From assembly GCF_002464935.1 (NCBI RefSeq), contig NZ_NBYY01000010.1, forward strand, positions 1 through 64,000: 64,000 bases of DNA, given 5' to 3'. Under the pieces are notes generated by a model. It was not told the DNA's origin. It made no database searches and saw only the letters and a program-made list of their open reading frames with translations. Position 1 is the first letter of the stretch. Each line of letters begins with the position of its first letter. Shown here piece by piece: positions 21,913 through 62,313 of this stretch. Made by a program: the position numbers and the translations under genes. The stretch comes from Candidatus Enterovibrio escicola. Its GTDB lineage: Bacteria > Pseudomonadota > Gammaproteobacteria > Enterobacterales > Vibrionaceae.

Positions 21913-22582
21913 TAACTTCAAATCTGTATAAGCGCGACTTTTTCAAACCGAGTAATTTTAAGGCTAGATTTTTCTGGTTTGAACGTATAGAAATAAGTCT
22001 AGCAATAATGTTAACCATAAAACTCACTCCACTTCAGTGCCGAGAATACTCTATTTGGGATATGTTTTTTTATCTGATTAAAGACTACCTCGATGATCAA
22101 TCGTTTTCTAAATATCAGATGATCCTAAATCTTCATTACCTTTAATTTCATGTTATTCCGTGTGTTTGCGATGAAAGCAACCCATTTTTTGGCGAATATT
22201 TCTAAGGAAACTAGATAGATATCCCCTATCTAACATAGAGTTATCTCCATAGATTATCTGGTCATATTAGGCAAGGGTTTTCTGTCATCAATATTGGCTT
22301 TTGTTACCGTTACCAACATGATACTGATTTGGTCTTTGATGAAAATATATAATAATCGACATAACTTCACTGATTGAAAGGCGAGAAGATTTATTTCTTT
22401 TTTGAAACCTAAAATCAGGTGTTTTTCCAAATAGGAAGGGGAACCTGACAGAAATCGTCAATATCGGTAGAACAACGTCTAACTTAGCCATGTTAAAGTC
22501 TTTCTGTGACTTATTCTTTGATTTAAACGATCAGATCGCAATTTGGGAACTTAGTTTATTTTTTATATTCAGCTTAGGTTAA
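21913..22582 (-). mobile_element. IS982-family relic with internal deletion
   Basis: Both decayed terminal repeats can be seen (TAACTTCAAATCTGTATAAG at 21913 and TATTCAGCTTAGGTTA, reversed, ending at 22582). Read on the minus strand, it gives the transposase N-terminus, then a piece around KANIDDRKPLPNM, then FRKRLIIEVVFNQIKKHIPN. Stops break every part. At about 670 bp it lacks roughly a third of the IS982 copy at 22845. Confidence 0.82.
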
Positions 22583-22583
22583 T

Positions 22584-22740
22584 TACAATGCTTAAGTTGG
22601 TGGAGTGCTGGCCAATATGAAAGTGATAAACAAAGTTATAAGACTCGGTATGCCTATTTGCCAGCAAACAAATTAAAACTGTAAAAAAGATTTGGATTAG
22701 TGCGTTATAGAGCTATATTAATCAATAAAACTGTATAAAA
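22584..22740 (+). mobile_element. IS5-family relic, transposase C-terminus
   Basis: The plus strand reads QVGGVLANMKVINKVIRLGM, then PICQQTN and a stop, the C-terminus of the IS903-group transposase. The conserved tail sequence follows. It is wedged between two IS982 relics. Bases 22741-22844 between it and the next IS982 show nothing I recognise. Confidence 0.75.
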
Positions 22741-22844
22741 TCCCTAATTTTCTCATGGTGATCAGCACTATTGATAAGGAATGGTATTTGTATGTTATAC
22801 ACCAGTGCGACCCTGTTAATGGTCATGCTGACTTGCCTAATAAC

Positions 22845-23813
22845 TTAACCTGAACTGCGCATAAGAAATGAACTAAGTTCCCAAATTGCGATCTGATCGT
22901 TTAAAAAAACTATTGACTGCATAAGAACTTGGGTATGAATAAGTTAGACGCTGTTTTGTCGATATCGATGACTTCTGCCCAGATTTCCCTCCCTGCTTGG
23001 GAAAAATACCTAATTTCTTCCGGTGTCAAATAAAAAAACAAGCCTTCTCAGTTATCGAAGTGATGACGATAGTGATAGCTTTCCATCAATCTGGGTGTCG
23101 AGACTTCAAAATCTATTACATCTACTTTGTTTGTCGCTACCTCACCAACGAATTTCCTGGATTAGTTAGCTACACAAGGATGCGCAAGCTCATGCAAGGT
23201 GTTCTGGTTCTGCTTTGCTCTTATCTCATTCACCGTCAGGCAAGGCCAACAGGGATTGTCTTCGTTGAGTCGTCTAAGCTACAGGTTTGTTACAACCTCC
23301 GTATTCTCAGATATCAGGTTTTAAAAGTACCGAGAAGTGAGGAAAAGGAATTATGGGGTGGTTTTTCAGTTTCAAATTACACCTTATTATCAATGACCAA
23401 GGTGGCATTATCTCAGTCAAAGTGACGACGGCTAACGTTGATGATAGAAAGGCTGTGTCGGAAATGGTTGACGAGATTTTGGGGTATTTATACGGAGATA
23501 AAGGTTATATCTCTGGTCCATTGGAGCGGGAACTTTCAAACAAGAGAGTGACACTGATAACGGATGTAAAAAACATTAAACCCAAAGTAATGAAACTTTG
23601 GAACCGCCTGATGCTCCGGAAACAATTTATTATTGAAACCGTTTTTGACTAACTAAAAAATATATCCTAAATCAAGTATTCTCGGCACCGTAGTTGTATT
23701 AGCTTTATGGTCAACTTGCTGGTGGGGCTTATCGCGTATTCATTTCAACCAAAGAAGCCGAGCATCCAGATGACTGGATTTGATAAGTAAGCGCTTATGC
23801 AGATCTGAGGTTA
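22845..23813 (+). mobile_element. IS982-family element, near full length, inactivated
   Basis: Both terminal repeats are clear (TTAACCTGAACTGCGCATAAG-type at 22845 and CTTATGCAGATCTGAGGTTA ending at 23813). About 970 bp encode the whole IS982 transposase in pieces. The start near 22936 is frameshifted, CAA has become TAA in the region of IKQRNKP, and the two long frames (22997-23425 and 23353-23652) are out of register. The DDE-type core is recognisable (FKLHLIINDQGGIISVKVTT; NVDDRKAVSEMVDE; YGDKGYIS). This is the best-preserved IS copy in the window, but it is not functional on its own. Confidence 0.9.
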
Positions 23814-58466: not shown

Positions 58467-58684
58467 ATAATAATGTTGCAAGCAATCACCCTGCTACGAT
58501 TGAGAAACCCTGCTATAAAAGGATCACAATGATTATATCTTTAGTTCTTAATACCCACACTAGGCGTTATTTCCCAAATATATGAACTAATCTCAATTCC
58601 TACGATCAGATTATCATGGAATTAAGCGGAAGGTGATGATGGAAAAGGACAAGGAAAAGATCAGCAACTATAAACAATATAAAC

Positions 58685-58728
58685 AACCTCAGATCTGCAT
58701 AAGCAATTGCTTATGCAGATCTAAGGTT
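58685..58728. repeat. 44-bp palindrome made of two IS982 right ends
   Basis: Two IS982 right-end tips (AGATCTGCATAAGCAA and its mirror) meet tip-inward with one mismatch in 22-bp arms. They split the codons between KQYKQ and ALVSI of the IS5 transposase, where the intact family reads YNQALVNRG. Confidence 0.9.
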
Positions 58729-59122
58729 GCATTAGTAAGCATTTGAGGACTATGGAAGTCAAGTATTGTTTGCCGAGTCGAGGAGCTGTCACCCACATTG
58801 TTATTGAGGGCAGAGGCCTACAGGTATACGGAGACTGCAAATAAAAAACGCGTAAATACAGTAAGGAAAAGCGGTTTATTTGGTGCAAACTGCATCTTGC
58901 AGTTGATGCGTCTACTCATGAGGTTATCGCCACCGAAGTTGGCCTAGTGTTGGTGGGTAACAATGAAGTTTTACTTTCATCGCTTAACCCATTACGATAG
59001 AAGATACAGCAAGTCAGTGCTGATAGAGATTATGACACAAAATCATGTTATTACGTACTTAAAAACAAAAGAATAACGCCACTATTCCACCTCGAAAAAA
59101 TGCGAGTTACGGGGAAGAAGGA

Positions 59123-59271: not shown

Positions 59272-59599
59272 AAAAGGGACATCCTAGAAATAACGCGATA
59301 AAGGCATTGAAAGATGACAAATTGGTGAAGTGTAAATAGTATTTTGGTTATCACAAACGCTCATTAATTGAAATAGCAATGTATCGCTATAATCAGTTAC
59401 TCAGTCCTAAACTCACTCTTCTTTATTACAAGGTTCAGGTTGGTGGAGTATTGGCAAATGTGAAAGCAAGGAACCAAGTCATAAGGCTTTATATTCCTGT
59501 TTGCCAGCAGACAAATTGAGACTGTAAAGAAGATTGGGATTAGTGTGTCATAGGCTTAATGTAATTAACAACGCCGCATTTGCCAACCCTGTATTGATT

Positions 59600-61347: not shown

Positions 61348-61367
61348 TTTTCATATGATTATGTAAT

Positions 61368-62313
61368 ATAATCTGAGTGGCGCATAAGAAATGAACCAAA
61401 TATCCAATCGGTAATCTGGTCGTTTAAATTAAATCATCAGTTGAAAAGGGACTTTTATATGAATAACCTAGCTGTTGTTTTTAACAATATCGATGATTTT
61501 ATCAGGTTTCCATCCTACTTGGGAAAACACCGGATTTAAGGTTCCACAACAAGCAATAAACCTTTTTCCTTTCAAGCAGTGAACTCATGACAATTATTGT
61601 ATCTTTTCATTAATTATCAATTTGATTTTCATAATTCTAGAATGGATTACGCGCAATTTATCTGCCGTCACTTAACAGGTAAATGCCCTGACTTGGTTCG
61701 CTATACACAGATCTTTAAATTGATGCAAGGAACTTTGTTTCCCCATTTATTCTTATCTGACTCACCGTGAAGCAAAACCTATTGGCATCAGGTTTGTTGA
61801 TTCAACTAAGCTACAGATATGTCACAATTTACATATTCTATGGCATGGCTTGTTTGAGAAGGTGGCTGAACAAGGTAAGGGGACGATGAGAGGATTCTAT
61901 GGCTTTAAACTTCACCTTATCATCAATGACCAAGGAGGTATCATTTCGATAAAGGTAACAACAGCCAATGTTGATGACAGAAAATCCGTGCCCGAGATGG
62001 CCGATAATCTCTAGAGATCACTATTATAGTGATAAAGGCTATATCTCTGGTTCCCTTAAAAAACTTGCCGAAAAATAGGTTAATTTCATCCCTAATACAG
62101 GGAAGCTTTTGAAACTAAAGATGATGAAGCTTTGTGAGCATCTTTAGTACAATTAAAAAATATCTCCAAAATCGAGCATTTTCGTCACCGTAGTTTTATC
62201 AGCTTTATGGCCAACTTGCTGGCGGGATTCATCGCGTATTCATTTCCACCAAAGAATCCAAGCATCAAGATAACTCGGCTTGATAAGCAAGTGCTTATGC
62301 AGATCTGAGGTTA
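61368..62313 (+). mobile_element. IS982-family relic, full extent but degenerate
   Basis: Both ends are present (ATCTGAGTGGCGCATAAG at 61371 and CTTATGCAGATCTGAGGTTA to 62313). The transposase is readable in pieces: FYGFKLHLIINDQGGIISIK, TTANVDDRKSVPEMADNL and NFMANLLAGFIAYSF-like residues. Internal loss and stops are present throughout. Confidence 0.85.

Follow-up and report, generated by a model that had tools for sequence, protein, structure and literature searches.

Palindromes of two IS982 right ends, probable deletion scars between inverted IS982 copies, recur in the genome of Candidatus Enterovibrio escacola

The window, by which we mean the whole 64,000-nucleotide stretch of DNA analysed here, comes from contig 19 of a 39-contig genome of 2,645,619 bases. 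Its owner, Candidatus Enterovibrio escacola MJ02, is described in passages of PMC6020299 as an anglerfish light-organ symbiont carrying 198 IS5 and 333 IS982 transposase genes, none of them complete. The proC protein adjoining the site of interest shares 75-79% identity with proteins of Enterovibrio and Grimontia. At this site, a 44-bp palindrome interrupts the remains of an IS5-family element, and the features referred to below are as follows.

58564..58684, + strand: IS5-family pseudogene, 5' part, ending at IS5 position 128, where IS982 copies are also inserted in loci L007, L189 and L190
58685..58728, no strand: 44-bp palindrome of two inward-facing IS982 right ends (AACCTC...AAGGTT)
58685..58706, + strand: left arm, one IS982 right-end tip, matching the right ends of full-length IS982 copies
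58699..58714: palindrome centre ATAAGC-AATT-GCTTAT, the same small palindrome as in the native IS982 right end (ATAAGCACTTGCTTAT) and the proposed crossover homology
58707..58728, - strand: right arm, the same tip inverted, with one C-to-T change at arm position 6
58729..59121, + strand: IS5-family pseudogene, resuming at IS5 position 366, where another IS982 is inserted at 366/370 (L050)
59272..59575, + strand: IS5-family pseudogene, 3' part
61364..62312, - strand: degenerate full-length IS982 near the palindrome, with its right end at 62312

An inverted-repeat scan of the window (spacer 0-30, at most two mismatches) returned the palindrome at 58685-58728 alone, and arms of this kind are expected by chance about 1e-7 times per 64 kb at spacer 0. 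The C and G bases that flank it lengthen the arms to 23 nt (58684-58729, 22 of 23 pairs). Each arm corresponds to the right-end tip, AACCTCAGATCTGCATAAGC, of a degenerate element of IS982 type and about 1 kb in length. The sequence-only reading had placed two inward-facing IS982 right ends here inside an IS5 transposase; the position and the arm matches to IS982 tips bear this out, and the host sequence is indeed of the IS5 family, a pseudogene. As a single strand, the palindrome is predicted to fold into a stable hairpin (-18.6 kcal/mol, z -8.8), and a hairpin or cruciform is therefore possible at the site.

The parent of the arms shows the traits of the IS982 family, which passages of PMC7335449 describe as elements of about 1 kb with ends starting AC and variable direct repeats: 38 of 39 full-length copies measure 741-991 bp, their ends read ACC...GGT, and short direct repeats occur. 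A 60-aa piece of the parent element matches the NCBIfam IS982 transposase NF033520 with an E-value of 1.3e-19 and 70.8 bits, less than the curated cut-off of 130 set for whole proteins; a second 60-aa fragment gave no match. In contrast to a typical family member, all IS982 copies read in this genome are decayed, and the palindrome keeps the tips alone. The native right end reads AACCTCAGATCTGC-ATAAGCACTTGCTTAT-CAAGCC, and 14 bp inside the tip of each right end sits a small palindrome, ATAAGC-4N-GCTTAT. This block is nearly its own reverse complement, so that it forms an imperfect 16-bp direct repeat between two IS982 that lie inverted to each other. The left end, which is not as well conserved as the right, does not carry the block. 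At one locus (L194 358-2332), two IS982 stand in direct tandem with a few bases between them.

Comparison of the flanks with IS5 changes the picture of the site. Between them, 237 bp of IS5 (129-365) are missing, and the alignment indicates that the flanks derive from two different IS982 insertion sites. It had been proposed that the palindrome splits IS5 codons precisely between YKQ and ALV and leaves the reading frame in step. That proposal fails: the right flank is IS5 366 rather than the continuation of 128 and belongs to another native frame. The upstream frame read across the palindrome gives ...KV ALVSI*, with a stop five codons later, whereas the right flank natively reads ISKHLRTMEVKYCLPSRGAV, in a different phase. 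The motif GCATTAGTAA is present twice in IS5, at about 130 and at 366, in both places as GCATTAG(T)A. Because the palindrome precedes the second of these, the apparent YKQ/ALV continuity is, on this alignment, a coincidence of the repeated GCATTAGTAA.

Non-contiguous flanks are not peculiar to the window. The palindrome C38:96550 has the same right site (IS5 366) and a left site at IS5 71, and further joints connect IS982 540 to IS5 913, IS5 300 to IS982 540, and IS5 1020 to IS982 868. Many of these sites also bear insertions of single, full-length IS982 (IS5 128, 366/370, 398/401, 913/916 and 1012/1020; IS982 540), while IS5 71 and 296/300 and IS982 425 and 868 carry no single IS982 insertion in our sample. 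The native bases beyond the junctions match the arm at about two to three of eight positions and thus show no clear homology; landing by microhomology as a general rule is ruled out by this unlikeness. One exception is C37:74409, an apparent join at a GAGGT match inside IS982 and not at a target site.

How often does such a structure occur? Searching the genome with a 32-base pattern, three mismatches being allowed, gave 14 places (its reversed control, none), and an exact pattern with a flexible centre gave 15. A covariance model built from 16 copies returned 112 rows in the own genome, for which strands were merged and the sequences read. As 150 of 2839 first-look candidates were scored by this model, the copy counts are lower bounds: at least 34 places, comprising at least 32 right-end/right-end palindromes and two variant joints, the remaining rows resembling single IS982 right ends. 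The one-off deletion that the earlier reading would have favoured in the absence of other copies is thus not what the genome holds. In the two variant joints, C33:2194 and C5:441243, one arm comes from inside IS982 near the left end and is joined at CTGCATAAG. Variant joints between an IS982 right end and the internal CTGCATAAG near the left end give very short left/right elements at L187 1195-1237 and L188 1244-1287. An exact 9-base-arm pattern, whose core is held by 17 of 39 left ends, found no left/left palindromes; this null result from pattern matching appears only moderately informative because the arms had to be exact and the left end is less conserved. An assembly artefact is unlikely, since flanks and arms vary among copies and the MJ02 assembly is described in PMC6020299 as built from 250-bp paired reads at 58x. 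The literature searched yielded nothing describing such scars, and the words 'MITE', 'inverted repeat' and 'palindrom' are absent from the main text of PMC6020299.

A family of short repeats bounded by IS ends invites the interpretation, also put forward in the sequence-only reading, of a tiny non-autonomous element of its own: a self-contained micro-MITE of 44 bp, bounded by two right ends and mobilised in trans by the IS982 transposase. There are many copies at different places, both tips are intact, the parental IS family is present in the genome, and as in MITEs the terminal inverted repeats are those of the parental IS. IS982-derived MITEs are moreover known from a Cardinium endosymbiont: passages of PMC9769881 describe MITECca01 of Cardinium cOegib, an element of about 240 bp whose inverted repeats resemble those of the parental IS and which its authors read as mobile. 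MITECca01 and our palindrome are alike in being short IS982-derived repeats in a host-restricted symbiont with decaying ISs, but ours has 44 bp and two right ends, and in general no duplications.

The target duplications that the earlier reading had proposed to look for show no excess. Flanks were compared for 31 of the 34 rows (C32:5363, C33:2194 and C5:441243 were dropped). Their six-base identity amounts to 104 matched bases against 105 in shuffled flanks (p 0.67), and exact 6/7-bp duplications were found in two of the 31 palindromes (shuffled 0.6, p 0.11), namely exact 6-bp duplications at C6:201415 and C37:31597; C22:65456 is flanked by an 8-bp repeat that is itself palindromic. The same test does detect duplications around full-length IS982, with exact 6/7-bp repeats in 10 of 39 copies (shuffled 2.1, p 5e-5), these 39 having come from 53 scanned loci; the difference between palindromes and full-length copies has a Fisher p of 0.054. 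A reference insertion is L007, where IS982 lies in IS5 as ATAATCA|ACC...GGT|TAATaAAG, the empty IS5 in L003 reading ATAATCAAGCATTAG. The two exact 6-bp duplications speak for a mobile unit, but duplications are no higher than in shuffled flanks overall, and the mapped flanks are non-contiguous (for example IS5 128/366, IS5 71/366 and IS982 540/IS5 913), so that the target duplication and contiguous flanking DNA of a MITE are both lacking. In addition, 44 bp would leave little room for synapsing two ends. The duplication test with its positive control rules out a mobile micro-MITE as the general case, and we hold this explanation to be very improbable. A duplication test should accordingly come before any annotation of tip-to-tip IS palindromes as MITEs. 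A larger moving unit, a shortened IS982 together with the palindrome, was rejected as well: of 13 copies examined, the far end was found in 11, and none of these 11 shows an exact duplication. IS982 site 540 is common to 10 copies with a shortened IS982, and a full IS982 is inserted at 540 in L208; we read this site as an insertion hot spot.

The two arms of a palindrome are more alike than the arms of different palindromes. For 28 copies (three more with over four mismatches, caused by indels, were left out), arm mismatches within a copy sum to 22 as against 38.3 +- 1.7 between copies (p 5e-5). Identical changes in both arms were found nine times in eight copies, where 0.64 are expected (p 5e-5), next to 22 one-arm changes; an earlier two-arm count on 16 copies agrees. 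Six of the nine two-arm variants are absent from 39 single right ends, though one of these six (AATCTC) does occur in two other single copies, L041 and L047. The symmetry even runs past the tips: among the 31 palindromes, the summed run into the flanks is 69 against 41 +- 6 in shuffled flanks (p 0.0003), and eight have flank symmetry of at least 4 bp against 2.1 in shuffled flanks, while a ten-base symmetry count is not significant (139 vs 129, p 0.11). Full-length IS982 show a weak excess in summed runs (60 vs 49, p 0.03), and four of the 39 reach at least 4 bp, against 2.2 in shuffled flanks (p 0.16). At C6:85090, both flanks are altered alike from native IS5 and IS982, and at C5:363291, C6:201415 and C17:26196, one flank is by our reading altered from the native sequence toward the other.

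These patterns suggest that the arms are probably kept identical by template-switch correction, by analogy with a known process of this signature, treated in PMC8794818, in which mismatches between palindrome arms are fixed by template switching with the same change in both; quasi-palindrome correction is also a subject of PMC8604942, PMC3820800 and PMC7202029. The likeness lies in the same change being carried by both arms, the difference in there being many unlinked copies in one genome, some of them reaching a few flanking bases.

Could selection instead keep the arms alike, as in a terminator, a REP-like repeat or a protein-binding palindrome? The two-arm changes and the strong predicted hairpin would suit a conserved regulatory or structural repeat, as would the mean column identity of the palindromes, 95% against roughly 70-85% for the IS bodies around them. 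However, the tips are exactly the IS982 ends, many of the palindromes are situated within dead IS5 and IS982, and no T run follows the hairpin in the copies read; judged from these sequences, such a role would be most improbable.

A less remote, though still unlikely, alternative is fold-back replication at a single IS982 right end, which makes a second IS982 unnecessary: the nascent strand would pair at the small palindrome, copy the tip outward and rejoin the template downstream. This would produce identical arms and flank symmetry in one step, would suit the two-arm changes, and finds a matching landing site in the GAGGT joint of C37:74409. Against it, the landing sites are places where other IS982 have also inserted, and the native sequence there lacks homology to the arm, as noted above.

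We come back to a deletion. In our preferred reading, the palindrome is probably the deletion joint between two inverted IS982 right ends, with arms homogenised later. It builds on what was observed directly: the anatomy, the copy number, the mismatched flanks at IS982 sites, the lack of target duplication and the two-arm changes. From these we infer a precursor pair, a slip and a correction mechanism. At the window site, two IS982 would have inserted into the same IS5 at 128 and 366, in opposite orientations and with their right ends outward. In such inverted copies, the small palindrome would read the same way in both and so provide an imperfect direct repeat of 16 bp. Slippage during replication or a deletion between short repeats, probably by way of the hairpin formed by the inverted pair, would then remove both IS bodies and the intervening IS5, and the product would be a tip, the small palindrome and the inverted tip, 44 bp in total. 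The same deletion would have taken place in this genome some thirty times or more. Deletion between the blocks predicts exactly a tip, a block and an inverted tip with the native asymmetric centre, and the well-kept palindromes do have at their centre the small palindrome native to the right end, with its slight asymmetry. The want of left/left palindromes, at an end that does not carry the block, is moderate evidence in the same direction. The two-copy crossover alone does not predict arm identity, so that a second process must be added, a later homogenisation of the arms. Template-switch correction of the quasi-palindromes probably brought this about and would in some copies have converted a few flanking bases too. 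Of the idea that the palindrome is the minimal scar of an IS982 excision or deletion, the deletion scar finds support in a changed form: it would stem from a deletion between two inverted IS982 copies at different sites, and not from the excision of one copy. We count against the deletion reading the exact duplications in two of the 31 palindromes, the 8-bp repeat at C22:65456, the flank sites without a single IS982, the joint at C37:74409, the weak flank symmetry of full-length IS982 and the ten-base symmetry count that is not significant. In the window itself, two degenerate IS982 lie inverted at 21914-23812, with right ends outward (near 21914 and 23812) and an IS5 piece between them, and they are a possible precursor of such a palindrome; precursor and product at one and the same site were not seen.

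A known counterpart is the nearly precise excision of Tn10, in which a deletion runs from one short internal palindrome to another, each close to the outer end of one of two IS copies in inverted orientation. The internal palindromes act as direct repeats, the process needs neither RecA nor transposase, and the remnant is a palindrome of about 50 bp made of both outer ends. Tn10 nearly precise excision is mentioned in passing in passages of PMC5991714 and PMC12524634. Like this remnant, our palindromes consist of the outer ends of two IS copies in inverted orientation with nothing between them, and their joint lies inside a short IS-end palindrome that forms a direct repeat between such copies. 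The target duplication shared by the ends of one composite element, in contrast, is generally not found here (two of 31); the two IS982 were apparently inserted separately, with the result that flanking DNA was lost and no duplication is shared. Further differences are the dozens of natural copies and the later homogenisation of their arms. By this analogy, the palindrome works like a Tn10-type remnant but is not a strict member of the type because the shared target duplication is absent.

What could this mean for a shrinking genome? We tentatively propose, as an idea that may well not hold, that inverted IS pairs are repeatedly removed by hairpin-assisted deletion, leaving countable 44-bp fossils whose arms are then kept identical by template-switch correction that spreads into adjoining DNA. 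If true, inverted IS pairs, usually credited with inversions, would regularly contribute deletions as genomes shrink. The deletions by which IS-rich symbiont genomes become smaller seldom leave a scar that can be recognised. The thirty or so scars of a single type in this genome lend themselves to counting, to dating by means of their flanks and to comparison from strain to strain. The data suggest that inverted IS copies with a small palindrome in their ends give rise to deletions besides inversions, and this palindrome-linked deletion is open to testing in other IS families. Matching changes, in the two arms and also in a few flanks, would furthermore be evidence from nature of palindrome correction in sequences with no obvious coding function.

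Among 40 relatives, one clear further palindrome was found, in a genome that is probably Candidatus E. luxaltus (G004). It is of the same design with AACTTCAGAGCTGC arms and lies about ten bases past an apparent secA stop (L165 1501-1544); no orthologue of its site was found among the loci examined. IS982 is not listed in the paper on Candidatus E. luxaltus, and one decayed right end remains in G004 (L254 near 1190-1230). The scar seems to outlive its IS there.

The palindromes with unique flanks were also compared with relatives, gene names being read from the proteins. The neighbours omp-dusA and dksA-pcnB are neighbours in relatives too, and mlt-msbA, GS-sugar transferase, gltD-rppH, pntB-ylqF and mnmG-dsbA lie far apart or in another arrangement there, the host genome itself being shuffled. 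Between dksA and pcnB, gluQ is broken (L239 at about 7500, C22:190800): its N- and C-terminal parts remain, separated by about 0.9 kb of unrelated DNA with a decayed palindrome. On the same contig, leuS lies about 0.4-2.9 kb to the left of another palindrome (L231). Its leucyl-tRNA synthetase is 48-49% identical to the best matches in relatives, as compared with 65-90% for most other genes searched, and by this identity leuS is possibly a replaced gene.
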